DNA from: Mesoaciditoga sp.
GTDB taxonomy: Bacteria; Thermotogota; Thermotogae; Mesoaciditogales; Mesoaciditogaceae
NCBI GenBank assembly: GCA_002878315.1
Contig: PNIW01000032.1
Span: 1 to 64,000 of the forward strand
Reading direction: 5' to 3'
Length of the DNA stretch: 64,000 bases
The notes beneath the pieces were generated by a model. It worked only from the letters and a program-made list of their open reading frames with translations. It ran no database searches and had not been told where the DNA came from. Positions within the stretch are counted from its first letter, which is position 1; the number at the start of each line of letters is the position of its first letter. The position numbers and the translations under genes were made by a program. This document shows, piece by piece, positions 1 to 26,167 of this stretch.

Positions 1-195
<195 letters not shown>

Positions 196-227
196 AAAGA
201 TTGCTGCCCGTTTTTGAGTGGACTAAA

Positions 228-301
<74 letters not shown>

Positions 302-302
302 C

Positions 303-374
303 GGGGATGTAGCTCAGTGGGAGAGCATCTGCTTTGCAAGCAGGGGGTCGTCGGTTCGAATCCGATCATCTCCA
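303..374 (+). tRNA. tRNA-Ala (TGC)
   Basis: Second spacer tRNA. The acceptor stem GGGGATG pairs with CATCTCC, with discriminator A at 374. The anticodon loop TTTGCAA has TGC at 335-337. CCA is not encoded. It is co-transcribed with the rRNAs. Confidence 0.98.
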
Positions 375-377
375 GCG

Positions 378-398
378 GTCATTGAAAACTGAATAGAG
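378..398 (+). other. 5' arm of the 23S rRNA processing stem
   Basis: Bases 378-398 are complementary to 3346-3366, downstream of 23S, apart from one mismatch. Together they can form a stem of about 21 bp that loops out the whole 23S rRNA, the usual RNase III substrate. The inner 23S ends also pair (GGTTAAGG at 404-411 with CCTTAACC at 3333-3340), which supports the 23S boundaries given here. Confidence 0.85.
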
Positions 399-403
399 AG
401 TAA

Positions 404-3340
<2,937 letters not shown>

Positions 3341-3372
3341 TGAAACTCTATTCAGTTTTGAATGACTGTTAT

Positions 3373-3491
3373 GCCGGGTGAGGATACCGGACTGGGAAAC
3401 ACCCGTTCCCATTCCGAATACGGCCGTTAAGCCAGTCCGGGCCGATGGTAGTAAGGGGGCGACCCTTTGCAAGAGTAGGTCATTGCCCGGC
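3373..3491 (+). rRNA. 5S ribosomal RNA
   Basis: A molecule of about 119 nt directly after 23S. The terminal helix is GCCGGG (3373-3378) with CCCGGC (3486-3491). The internal loop sequence CCCATTCCGAATACGG near 3408 is the usual 5S loop B/C region. It is the last gene of the rRNA operon and is followed by a terminator. Confidence 0.96.
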
Positions 3492-23170: not shown

Positions 23171-23746
23171 ATGATCGAAAAAATAATTGAATTTACAAAG
23201 AAAAAGATGGAAGGATCTCACGATTTTGATCATGTCCTGAGAGTGGTAAGATTTTGCGAAATCATAGGCCAAAATGAAAATGCGAAGATGGATATCTTGA
23301 TTCCAGCCGCATATCTTCACGATATTGCCAGATCTCTTGAGGAAAAAGATAAATCTGTAGATCACGCAATCGCGGGATCCAAGATCGCACTTGATTTTTT
23401 AAAAAGTATCGGGCATCCATATGCCGAAGAAATATCCTATGTCATATCGGTTCACAGATTTTCAAGAGGCCTTGTTCCGCAAAAACTTGAGGCAAAGATT
23501 TTGCAGGACGCAGATAGGCTCGACGCCATCGGCGCGATTGGAATATACAGAGCGATAATGTATTCAGCGCTTAACGGCAGGAATATTCAAGATACGATAT
23601 CGCATTTTGAGAGTAAGATTTTGAACCTTAAGGATTTGATGCACACCGATACGGCAAAAAAGATGGCCGAAAAACGCCATCAGATAGTCTTTGAATTTGT
23701 CAAATCTCTTAAGGAAGATCTCATGCAAATTGAGAAACAAATCTGA
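23171..23746 (+). CDS. HD-domain phosphohydrolase
   Basis: A soluble protein of about 191 residues with the HD-superfamily metal site: an early His (SHDFDHVLRV), the HD pair in AAYLHDIAR, and the later Asp in QDADRLDAIGAIG. This matches the small uncharacterised HD hydrolases related to YedJ-type proteins, which act on nucleotides or other phosphoesters; the substrate is unknown. The start was placed at ATG 23171, with GGAGG five bases upstream. Its 3' end overlaps the convergent glutamine-type ABC ATPase gene by 26 bp. It follows the terminator of the UDP-sugar operon. Confidence 0.85.
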   Translation: MIEKIIEFTKKKMEGSHDFDHVLRVVRFCEIIGQNENAKMDILIPAAYLHDIARSLEEKDKSVDHAIAGSKIALDFLKSIGHPYAEEISYVISVHRFSRGLVPQKLEAKILQDADRLDAIGAIGIYRAIMYSALNGRNIQDTISHFESKILNLKDLMHTDTAKKMAEKRHQIVFEFVKSLKEDLMQIEKQI

Positions 23747-24452
23747 CTGCCTGAGGCGTTTTGGGCATTTTGAAAAATTCATATGGTGTTGTATCTTCGA
23801 GTATGTATCCGTTACTCATGAATAGAATCCTATCGGATACCTCTCTTGCAAATCTCATTTCGTGAGTCACTATTATCATCGTGACGCCTTTTGAGGCGAG
23901 TTCTTTCATAACATTTAAAACTTCAACTGTCATTTCAGGATCAAGAGCCGATGTGGGTTCATCGAATAAAATGAGATCCGGCTCCATTGCCATTGCACGA
24001 GCGATAGCAACTCTTTGTTGCTGGCCACCCGAAAGTTGTGAAGGGTAACTGTTTAATTTTTCTCCAAGTCCTACACGCTTAAGCCATAAAGTTGCGATCT
24101 CTTTCGATCTATCCTTTCCGATCTTTCTTATCTTGACAAGGGGATACATGACATTTTTGAGCGCATTCATGTGCGGAAAGAGATTGTAACTTTGAGAAAC
24201 AAAGGCCATTTTCATCCTTGCCGCTCTTACAACCGAAGGCTCTGCGGTAAGAAGTTGACCTTTGAAAAAGATTTTGCCAGAATCGTATCTTTCCAAAAAA
24301 TTTATACTTCTAAGCAGTGTGGATTTCCCCGTTCCAGAAGGGCCCATTATAACTACAACCTCTTTTTCGTTAACGCTCATGGAGATGTCTTTGAGGACGA
24401 CATTTTCTCCAAAGGATTTTTTTAAATTTTCTATTCTTAGTATCTCGCTCAA
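23721..24452 (-). CDS. Polar amino-acid ABC transporter ATPase (GlnQ type)
   Basis: A 243-residue ATPase of the PAAT family. It has Walker A GPSGTGKST, signature LSGGQQQRVAIARA, Walker B LILFDEPTSALDPEM and the family motif TMIIVTHEMRFAREVSDR. The start is TTG, overlapping the permease stop (TTGA); a GGAGG lies 11 bases upstream. It is last in the binding protein-permease-ATPase operon. Amino-acid specificity cannot be taken from the ATPase. Confidence 0.93.
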   Translation of the reverse strand: MSEILRIENLKKSFGENVVLKDISMSVNEKEVVVIMGPSGTGKSTLLRSINFLERYDSGKIFFKGQLLTAEPSVVRAARMKMAFVSQSYNLFPHMNALKNVMYPLVKIRKIGKDRSKEIATLWLKRVGLGEKLNSYPSQLSGGQQQRVAIARAMAMEPDLILFDEPTSALDPEMTVEVLNVMKELASKGVTMIIVTHEMRFAREVSDRILFMSNGYILEDTTPYEFFKMPKTPQAVRFVSQFA

Positions 24453-25183
24453 GGTATTGCAAACCTCCTCTCAATTATTTTACTTGCATAACTTAAAACG
24501 TAAGTCAGGGTAAAATACATTAGCGCGACGGTTATATAACTTTCGAATGATGCCAAGGCCATCGTTGCAACTTCATTCCCTCTTTGGGTTAATTCTTCTA
24601 TCGCTATTACAGACGCAAGAGAACTGTCCTTTATGAGACTTATAAACTGGCCTGTCAGTGAAGGGAGAGCATTTCTGAAGGCCTGTGGAAGGATTATATC
24701 GAAGAATTTTTGGCTTTCGCTAAGGCCGAGCGCATCTGCGGTTTCAAATTGCGCTTTTGGAATTGACTGGATTCCGCCTCTTATTATTTCAACTATGTAG
24801 GCCCCCTCAAATGTTGAAAGCGCTATAACGGCGGCCCAGAATCTTGGAAAATCGAAGATAGTGCCTATTCCGTAATAGACAAGAAGTATTATCACAAGCA
24901 ATGGAATGTTGCGAAAAATGGTAACGTAAACGCCGGTAAGATCTCTAAGGGTTTCGCTTTTGGAAACCCTCGCTATGCCTCCAAGTACTCCTATAACAAA
25001 AGAAAGTAAAATACTGAATATTGAAATTTGAAGGGTTATAAGCATTCCCATCAGATAGAGTTTTAGGTAATCAAAGGGCACAATATTCCAGTGAAATGGA
25101 TATTGCAAGGAAATAAGATAATACATACCTCCAAAGACCACGATCAGTATGATCGCGGTAGATAATTTTCGAAACCATCTCAT
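24449..25183 (-). CDS. Polar amino-acid ABC transporter permease
   Basis: A 244-residue inner-membrane permease of the His/Glu/Gln/Arg/opine family. It has an N-terminal membrane helix (residues ~7-27), then the five-helix permease core with the EAA-type loop FETADALGLSESQKFFDIILPQAFRNALPS (conserved positions FETA, ALG, LPQA). It overlaps the ATPase gene by four bases and lies nine bases after the binding-protein gene. It probably works as a homodimer. Confidence 0.93.
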   Translation of the reverse strand: MRWFRKLSTAIILIVVFGGMYYLISLQYPFHWNIVPFDYLKLYLMGMLITLQISIFSILLSFVIGVLGGIARVSKSETLRDLTGVYVTIFRNIPLLVIILLVYYGIGTIFDFPRFWAAVIALSTFEGAYIVEIIRGGIQSIPKAQFETADALGLSESQKFFDIILPQAFRNALPSLTGQFISLIKDSSLASVIAIEELTQRGNEVATMALASFESYITVALMYFTLTYVLSYASKIIERRFAIP

Positions 25184-25192
25184 TCACATCAC

Positions 25193-25969
25193 CTATGAAT
25201 TTGGTTTGTAATTAACAAACCATTTGTCGTAAAGTTCCTGCCATTGGCCGCTTGCCTTTATGTATGTTATGAAGGTATTTATCCAATTAAGAAGTTCCTG
25301 TTCATTTTTCTTTATCGCTATTCCATAATTTTCGTTTGTAAGCGTCTCATCTACTGTGGCAAGTTGATTATATTTTTCTACCATATATCCGACGTAAGTT
25401 GAATCTGCAACGGCAATGTCGGCCTTTTTCATCGCAACCTGCAATGCGGCTTCGTCCATTGTATTGAATTCAAGTATTTTTGCATTTGGGAAGATTTTCT
25501 TTGCCGCATCTTCACCTGTTGTTCCTATCTCGACGGCCACCGTTAAATTTTTCTGATCTTGAAGGCTTTTAACGGTCGGATTAGTATAAACTGATTTGTT
25601 GTAGAGGATCTTCTGCCCTATTGTAAAGTAAGGGATAGAGAAATCGACCATCAGCGCTCTTTTTGGAGTTATCGTCATCGCCGATATTATCATGTCGAAC
25701 TTTCCGGAGACAAGAGACGGAAGAATTCCAGACCATTGTGTTGGAACTATTCTGAGTTTGACTCCAAGTTCATTCGCCATTAACTGAGCCATATCGACAT
25801 CAAATCCTACGTAATTGCCGTTTGAATCCACACCCTCAAATGGCATGTAATGTACATCCATTCCCACTGTCAGATAACCCGAAGAGATTATCTTGTCAAG
25901 TGTGTCCGCCCCTACCACCACTGTTAGAATGACAAGAGAAAGGACAAATAACGCAAAAGTTTTACCCAT
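25193..25969 (-). CDS. Polar amino-acid ABC substrate-binding protein
   Basis: A family 3 solute-binding protein of about 258 residues. A signal peptide spans residues 1-20 (FALFVLSLVILTVV) with no lipobox cysteine, so it is secreted or membrane-retained by other means. Binding-domain signatures are YVGFDVDMAQ, the ligand-arginine region MTITPKRALMVDFSIPY, and VEIGTTGEDAA. The start was placed at ATG 25969, with GGAGGTG four bases upstream; an in-frame codon at 26011 lies in the leader terminator. The gene is preceded by a structured leader (25998-26110) that probably controls the operon. Confidence 0.92.
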   Translation of the reverse strand: MGKTFALFVLSLVILTVVVGADTLDKIISSGYLTVGMDVHYMPFEGVDSNGNYVGFDVDMAQLMANELGVKLRIVPTQWSGILPSLVSGKFDMIISAMTITPKRALMVDFSIPYFTIGQKILYNKSVYTNPTVKSLQDQKNLTVAVEIGTTGEDAAKKIFPNAKILEFNTMDEAALQVAMKKADIAVADSTYVGYMVEKYNQLATVDETLTNENYGIAIKKNEQELLNWINTFITYIKASGQWQELYDKWFVNYKPNS

Positions 25970-25997
25970 ACAGCACCTCCCTAAGATTTTTGAATAT

Positions 25998-26110
25998 AAA
26001 AAAGGCCACATCTTTGATGTGAAACCTTCTCATGCACGATCAAGAAGCCGCTTCACCGGGCGGTTGCTTGACGTGCTTTCTATTTTCAATTATTGAAAAT
26101 TTTTTCACAT
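25998..26110 (-). promoter_or_regulatory. Candidate riboswitch/attenuator leader, class not recognised
   Basis: Minus-strand leader RNA of the amino-acid transporter operon. A closing helix P1 pairs ATGTGAAA (26103-26110 on the RNA) with TTTCACAT (26017-26024). It encloses a perfect hairpin (26082-26100) and a long hairpin whose arms GCACG-TCAAG/CTTGA-T-CGTGC (26034-26076) are topped by CCGC/GCGG. The 3' strand of P1 overlaps the 5' strand of a terminator hairpin, CACATC/GATGTG (26007-26021), followed by six T. The helices exclude each other, as in transcription-terminating riboswitches. I know no class with this junction. Confidence 0.6.
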
Positions 26111-26137
26111 TTCCCCCTTAATTCAAAGGTTTGAAAT

Positions 26138-26167
26138 ATCTTATCATTGATATTTGATCAATGTCAA
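26138..26167 (-). promoter_or_regulatory. Promoter of the amino-acid transporter leader
   Basis: On the minus strand TTGACA (26162-26167), an 18-bp spacer and TAAGAT (26138-26143). The predicted start near 26131 would give a leader of about 160 nt ahead of the binding-protein gene, enough to include the whole proposed riboswitch. Confidence 0.65.

Follow-up and report, generated by a model that had tools for sequence, protein, structure and literature searches.

A probable ribosome-mediated attenuator upstream of an amino-acid transporter operon in Mesoaciditoga and related leaders in Thermotogota

Results

A leader with a short open reading frame precedes a polar amino-acid transporter operon

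The window, a stretch of 64,000 nucleotides from Mesoaciditoga sp. (contig PNIW01000032.1), carries on its minus strand a three-gene operon of the polar amino-acid uptake type. Gene 1 (25193-25969, ATG at 25969) encodes a substrate-binding protein whose best NCBIfam match was the Lys/Arg/Orn-binding model TIGR01096, at 180 bits under the cut-off of 256. It is followed by a polar amino-acid ABC permease (gene 2, 24449-25183; TIGR01726, above cut-off) and by a GlnQ-like ABC ATPase (gene 3, 23721-24452). Elsewhere in the window, on the plus strand, we noted an rRNA operon (1-3491: the end of the 16S gene, two tRNAs, 23S and 5S) and an L10 leader (RF00557, 61153-61265; 46 bits against a gathering score of 44).

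The leader features ahead of gene 1 all lie on the minus strand. A predicted promoter consists of TTGACA (26167-26162), an 18-nt spacer and TAAGAT (26143-26138), with 10 of 12 consensus positions. The earlier note on this DNA had suggested a promoter that fits this end of the leader. The match is no better than chance (2 found versus 1.5 ± 1.5 in shuffles); several relatives carry TTGACA boxes at a comparable position, as judged by eye. An inverted repeat, CATTGAT-CAAAT-ATCAATG (26162-26144), lies between the -35 and -10 boxes and is imperfect in L002, the nearest relative of this leader (CATTGAACAAACATCGATG). Downstream, an SD-like AAGGGGG (26113-26119) precedes a leader ORF overlooked in the earlier note, with a GTG start, 22 codons and a TGA stop (26040-26108; MKKFSIIENRKHVKQPPGEAAS), so that the short ORF and SD-like site of the leader-peptide class both stand ahead of the operon; translation of the ORF is predicted. 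The codons AGA AAG CAC GTC AAG (Arg-Lys-His-Val-Lys, 26067-26081), the putative control codons, are placed in the 5' arm of a bulged hairpin that spans the ORF (26034-26076; GCACGTCAAG/CTTGATCGTGC, inner CCGC/GCGG). The predicted antiterminator pairs GTGAAGC (26050-26056; GCCCGGTGGA or GCCCGGTGAA in most family elements) with GTTTCAC (26019-26025), and an intrinsic terminator, AAGG-TTT-CACATC-AAA-GATGTG-G-CCTT plus a U-tract of six T ending at 25998, occupies 25998-26028.

The 126-nt leader folds at -38.0 kcal/mol versus -24.9 ± 3.5 kcal/mol for shuffled sequences (z -3.75; 1 of 200 shuffles as stable), and the terminator is likewise above chance (1 found versus 0.0 ± 0.2 in shuffles).

Related leaders are widespread in the class, mostly without the proposed closing helix

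A DNA search gave matches in 11 of 41 genomes, and the genome to which the window belongs contained additional copies. A covariance model of homologous leaders, which the earlier note had called for, was built from 13 copies (R1); at E <= 0.1 it matched 48 of the 103 genomes of the class and all 10 of the family (Athalassotoga, Mesoaciditoga and kin). From its 78 rows we curated 56 elements, 23 of them from the family. Left out were five rows judged to be unrelated terminators (G014, G057:1698908, G007:C62, G038, G004:C3), a hisZ leader with masked letters (G074), the oligopeptide-permease leader G012:C5, a citrate-synthase leader in which no start was found (G060), the rows G093, G096 and G098, two rows on the opposite strand of other matches (G060, G061), eight argJ-type rows (six without a clear leader peptide, together with G029 and G063) and the contig-end copy G000:C25. 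The last (L012) is a further leader in the window's genome, reading MNYVRLLENKKYVKQPPGGAEV by eye, with its downstream gene cut off by the contig end; it resembles the dapF leader L013 of Athalassotoga.

The argJ leaders L039, L044, L047, L060, L067 and L078 form a set of their own. A conserved AGGAGGCGCC is accompanied by a GCCGGTGG hairpin, and the sequence that follows the SD can pair with the 5' strand of the terminator. They have no usable leader peptide, some reading ATG-TAG and others having no ATG, and are possibly an arginine-responsive leader of another kind in family f7.

The core pattern was found in 18 stretches of a named genome collection. Thirteen of these came from the family and its bins: four in Athalassotoga saccharophila and nine in bins named Mesoaciditoga, Mesoaciditogaceae, Thermotogae, Thermotoga sp. 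or just bacterium. The other five, from other phyla, showed no terminator by eye and were rejected. Across the 10 family genomes, the terminator hairpin GCCACAT-N-ATGTGGC was counted 19 times, always in an R1 row, whereas its reversed control gave no match. A scan of the window itself for the core pattern gave 8 matches versus 6.2 expected.

These relatives separated what is conserved in the leader from what is not. The earlier note had described an 8-bp closing helix between ATGTGAAA (26110-26103) and TTTCACAT (26024-26017) that encloses an AT-rich hairpin (26100-26082) and the bulged hairpin, and whose 3' strand is also the 5' strand of the terminator; all of these are found in the sequence at those coordinates. 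The bulged hairpin recurs in relatives, where a C-G, U-G, U-A series was seen by eye in L002, L013 and L015. Also recurrent are the terminator, with stems of the GGCCACATC/GATGTGGCC type, and the suggested pairing of the hairpin loop GTGAA with TTCAC, in which the loop pairs to the 5' side of the terminator. The AT-rich hairpin is present and identical in L002 but is missing from the other elements inspected by eye. The closing helix, for which the earlier note had proposed compensatory changes as a check, does not recur: its 5' strand is kept in 2 of the 23 family elements (L001 and L002). In the window's minimum-free-energy fold that strand, which is the start region of the leader ORF, pairs with the U-tract and not with TTTCACAT.

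The leader reading frame is kept in the family

Leader ORFs were ranked on their SD match and on an ATG start, without regard to frame. The top-ranked ORF crosses the core in one frame in all 23 family elements, with 50 to 77 nt from start to core and 7, 16 or 19 nt from core to stop, all in phase, whereas the spacing from stop to terminator varies without phase. An SD match of at least 4 nt precedes the start in all 23 leaders, and the start codons are ATG, GTG or TTG. No synonymous excess was detected in 14 leader pairs by a crude count anchored at the stop codon (32 versus 99 codons, expected share 0.22), which indicates that the frame, its ends and the control codons are kept and not the whole peptide.

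Control codons track the downstream gene

We then compared the residues encoded ahead of the antiterminator strand, the control zone, with the downstream genes in the 56 curated elements, testing every amino acid. Curated models served to name one gene of each group; argG, asnA, dapF, dapH and aspartate kinase scored above a cut-off and hisZ below its own. Zone p values are uncorrected and the leaders are related; the zone also depends on the position of the antiterminator strand and was misplaced for L032 and L069. With these limits, the hisZ group had 29 His in 10 zones (p 4.5e-29), most of them with HHH or HHHH, and the argG group 20 Arg in 6 zones (p 8e-14; RRRTRCR and the like). Five of nine residues were Asn in the single asnA leader (NNNNN, p 2e-5). 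Lys came first ahead of dapF (NKKYVK, p 3e-4), lysC (NKKQVK, p 2e-3) and dapH (KNAKKR, one leader, p 0.03). All six biosynthetic groups thus had the amino acid of their pathway as the top residue of the zone. Over the whole peptide it stayed on top in five of the six, with p 0.09 for lysC, while dapH lost its Lys signal. Aspartate kinase serves more than lysine, a point against the attenuation reading.

The transporter group to which the window's leader belongs had both 13 His (p 3e-10) and 20 Lys (p 6e-7) in 8 zones, in [RK]K(H)xVK-like peptides, whereas the Lys leaders of the lysC, dapF and dapH groups have a zone without His. The codons suggest that the window's transporter leader senses two or more basic amino acids, with Lys and His foremost; as signals for this group, the two are indistinguishable. 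Two transporter leaders of family f9 read KKHVK, with Cys as the top zone residue, and transporter leaders of family f7 read RHHSRC.

Other genes are preceded by related leaders. Five elements (L004, L008, L052, L053 and L054) carry the same scaffold with Ile/Val/Leu codons (VVYIVLIL, IIxVVLIL) and precede a gene for an amidohydrolase resembling Xaa-Pro dipeptidase (NF051886, at 414 bits under the cut-off of 500). In L050, L051 and L055, ERRHHR, ERRDHR or NRRIK stands before oligopeptide transporter genes, named by eye, which suggests that peptide uptake may also be tied to basic amino-acid codons. In family f7, the citrate synthase leaders L033, L035, L041, L073, L075 and L081 encode NTLNNQPEPKVW-like peptides (NNQPEPK) with Asn as the top zone residue; Asn, Gln or Glu are candidate signals.

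Predicted alternative pairing of the ORF core and the terminator

In relatives, the ORF core CCCGGTGGA finds its partner in TCCACCGGG, a strand that shares nucleotides with the base of the terminator. The core common to the family, GCCCGGTGGA (PPGG codons), pairs with TCCACCGGGC, sharing 3-4 nt with the 5' strand of the terminator. When the best helix between ORF and preterminator region was compared with shuffles, 44 of 56 elements reached p <= 0.01 and 39 had a helix overlapping the terminator by at least 3 nt; 36 of the 56 combined the two, among them 21 of the 23 family elements. For L029, L030, L032, L034, L041 and L064, p was <= 0.01 but the chosen helix misses the terminator.

Covariation was assessed in 14 distinct rows, representing 22 family elements with L001 left out. 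Two of eight antiterminator pairs change on both sides through G-U-type intermediates, one as C-G, U-G and U-A and the other as G-C, G-U and A-U; one pair is A-C in 4 of the 14 rows and another is mismatched in L006. In the U-A rows, the closing pair of the terminator is A-U instead of G-C (AGCC/GGCT), such that the shared base keeps pace with both partners.

Ribosome positions were simulated by masking the ribosome footprint; stall residues were assigned after inspecting the leaders, and the antiterminator coordinates of L001 and L006 were set by hand. At 37 C and with no ribosome, antiterminator pairing was <= 0.02 in 14 of 16 Lys-type family leaders, while L015 and L021 formed the antiterminator on their own (0.71 and 0.68). 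A ribosome at the last but one Lys codon raised mean antiterminator pairing to at least 0.5 in 10 of the 16, the other six (L001, L005, L006, L010, L020 and L048) remaining below. Where the antiterminator formed, mean terminator pairing fell only to 0.82-0.94, because the antiterminator opens just the terminator base. Placing the ribosome at the last Lys codon left the terminator at 0.99-1.0 in all 16 (37 C). Outside the family, some hisZ leaders switched clearly (L037: antiterminator 0.89, terminator 0.27). The simulated switch failed there for asnA, for five of six citrate-synthase and for four of seven f7 transporter leaders, and in four of six argG leaders the helix found left the terminator undisturbed. 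Sequence evidence thus supports the attenuation mechanism well, folding only in part.

The window's own copy may be weakened

Relative to L002, 8 nt of the antiterminator strand (CGGGCCAC) and 3 nt of the terminator loop are absent from the window's copy. In equilibrium folding at both 37 and 60 C, its antiterminator pairing was 0.00-0.05 and its terminator pairing 0.87-0.99 in every simulated state. Since its antiterminator does not form in these folds, the family carries more weight than this copy in our conclusion on mechanism; the copy itself may be weakened or locked off. Three options could account for it: rescue by folding during transcription, a copy that is locked off, or a deletion that is an assembly error.

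One specific form of the last two options is that the family are attenuators while this copy has decayed through a deletion between CAC repeats, leaving a mostly constitutive terminator, or has been misassembled (the window's genome assembly is in 126 contigs). Compatible with attenuation in the family, this would explain both the absent nucleotides and the lack of a simulated switch. We nevertheless consider it somewhat unlikely: the 7-bp antiterminator GTGAAGC/GTTTCAC remains, overlaps the terminator by CAC and could be favoured by folding during transcription, and the G-run, the ORF (one codon off L002) and the U-tract are intact.

Known regulatory RNAs do not account for the leaders

At gathering score, neither the window's leader nor any of 14 related loci matched an Rfam family, His_leader and kin included, in keeping with the earlier statement that the core belongs to no known riboswitch class. 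At lax E-values there were six matches (best E 0.27), none near gathering score, and a known Rfam family was rejected.

The lysine riboswitch (RF00168, L-box) was detected in the Thermotoga maritima control and in 57 of the 103 genomes of the class, but neither in the window nor in the genome assembly from which it comes. Of the 13 genomes in which a Lys-type leader was found, none gave a match to it, versus 57 of the 90 others (Fisher p 1e-5, related genomes counted apart). We therefore rejected an L-box identity; the proposed attenuator occupies the place that the lysine riboswitch has in many other Thermotogota. A T-box, a match to which the earlier note had named as an outcome that would overturn its own reading, was also rejected: under strict filters, RF00230 matched neither the window nor any of the 103 genomes, in a search whose control detects 5 of 14 known genomes, 2 over cut-off.

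Discussion

We propose that the leader at 26130-25970 on the minus strand works, or worked before the deletion in the window's copy, as a ribosome-mediated transcription attenuator (probability about 0.8, judged from sequence and its comparison). Scarcity of charged tRNA would slow a translating ribosome at the Lys/His codons and thereby break the hairpin; the ORF core (CCCGGTGGA in relatives) would then be free to pair with TCCACCGGG, opening the base of the terminator. With ample Lys and His, the ribosome would reach the stop codon and leave, the hairpin would re-form, the terminator would stand and the transporter would be off. For this leader, Lys and His, perhaps also Arg, are the probable signals. 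The proposal retains a central element of the earlier note, a leader switch with a terminator that precedes amino-acid ABC transporter genes in a member of the Thermotogota, and replaces its sensor. As the closing helix is not conserved, the conserved hairpin lies within a kept frame and the codons track the downstream gene, the sensor would be a translating ribosome and not an RNA aptamer.

Could the peptide itself be the sensor? In ligand-dependent arrest peptides such as TnaC and SpeFL, the nascent chain stalls the ribosome, and a leader peptide with a conserved PPG(G) end might likewise stall on binding a free amino acid and so set the RNA switch. PPG, PPGG or PAGG near the stop indeed recurs in the family, and polyproline slows ribosomes. 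These PPGG codons, however, also form one antiterminator strand and vary in step with the opposite one (CCGGTGGA/TCCACCGG to CTGGTGGA/TCCACCAG), the peptide ends of other groups differ strongly (CRWVLNGA, GPAVSPPGV, CGLRLTP), and the crude count gave no synonymous excess. We consider arrest improbable.

Binding of a protein, either a repressor or an RNA-binding antiterminator, to the leader hairpin or to the inverted repeat in the promoter spacer is less probable again: the repeat would offer a site, but its imperfect form in L002 led us to reject it as an operator palindrome, and a bound protein leaves the match between codons and genes unexplained. Least probable of all is the ligand-binding riboswitch of the earlier note, in which an amino-acid-stabilised aptamer of unknown class would prevent the terminator. 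The stable fold, the terminator, the amino-acid transporter downstream and the absence of an Rfam match would suit it, but the 5' strand of the closing helix is kept in two of the 23 family elements, the conserved core runs in one open frame throughout the family, and the variable part is a codon zone that tracks the gene.

Returning to ribosome-mediated attenuation, the same scaffold carries other codons within the family (Ile/Val/Leu; Arg/His), and similarly arranged leaders in other members of the phylum have His, Arg or Lys codons; for these leaders, a common origin is only a candidate explanation. A broader proposal, to which we give slightly less than even odds, is that Thermotogota possess a modular attenuator cassette: one hairpin-antiterminator-terminator scaffold in which the codons have been exchanged (Lys, Lys plus His, Ile/Val/Leu and Arg/His, with His, Arg and Asn in relatives). 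Such a cassette would be a translation-based counterpart of the T-box where no T-box is found, and would have replaced the lysine riboswitch in Mesoaciditogaceae; the absence of that riboswitch from genomes with a Lys-type leader is consistent with the attenuator standing in its place. A scaffold common to several operons, with codons matched to each, would show how one attenuator is re-aimed, in a thermophilic phylum where we found no T-box. Dozens of leaders in these genomes gain a testable signal, and one riboswitch candidate is removed.

Comparison with known systems

Amino-acid leader peptides are textbook knowledge for Proteobacteria, where ribosome-mediated attenuators control trp, his, thr, leu, ilv and phe genes. 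The leaders described here resemble them in having a short leader ORF with control codons, a hairpin over these codons, an antiterminator opposed to a terminator and a cognate operon downstream. They differ in that Rfam, which was searched with the window's leader and 14 related loci, has no match at gathering score; in that the hairpin over the ORF end holds the antiterminator strand in its loop and inner stem, and the antiterminator overlaps only the terminator base; and in that one scaffold serves several amino acids within one family, including Lys, Arg and Asn versions.

Among the matches listed in our literature search, which covered titles and the beginnings of abstracts and left subscription literature mostly outside, including the comparative attenuation study by Lopatovskaya et al. 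(2010), which could mention Thermotogae, no paper dealt with leader-peptide attenuation in Thermotogota. As far as the cited literature was accessible, it places leader peptides in Proteobacteria, Actinobacteria and some Firmicutes. In 2010, according to the accessible part of one study, leader-peptide systems were known only from Proteobacteria and Actinobacteria, apart from ermC and a His leader of bacilli (PMC2965389). That His leader, upstream of hisZ and hisS* in bacilli, likewise places a His-codon peptide before hisZ, in another phylum (excerpts of PMC2965389). The uORFC motifs, described for cysS in Rhodobacterales and aroF in Acholeplasma, similarly combine a uORF with cognate codons and a terminator, but each is tied to one gene and they belong to other phyla; the genome set of that work included Thermotogae, and the part consulted names no such motif for them (PMC8632094). 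A count of leader genes by phylum calls its Thermotogae diagram not significant (PMC4833913, in part). From the portion of a further study available to us, the lysine riboswitch is present in most Thermotogales, and amino-acid attenuators may have arisen in gamma-proteobacteria (PMC3766115). The L-box also controls lysine genes, but we found it in none of the 13 genomes with a found Lys-type leader. Attenuation of this kind is therefore known; what is apparently new is the phylum, the Lys, Arg and Asn versions, and a single scaffold in which the control codons are exchanged.
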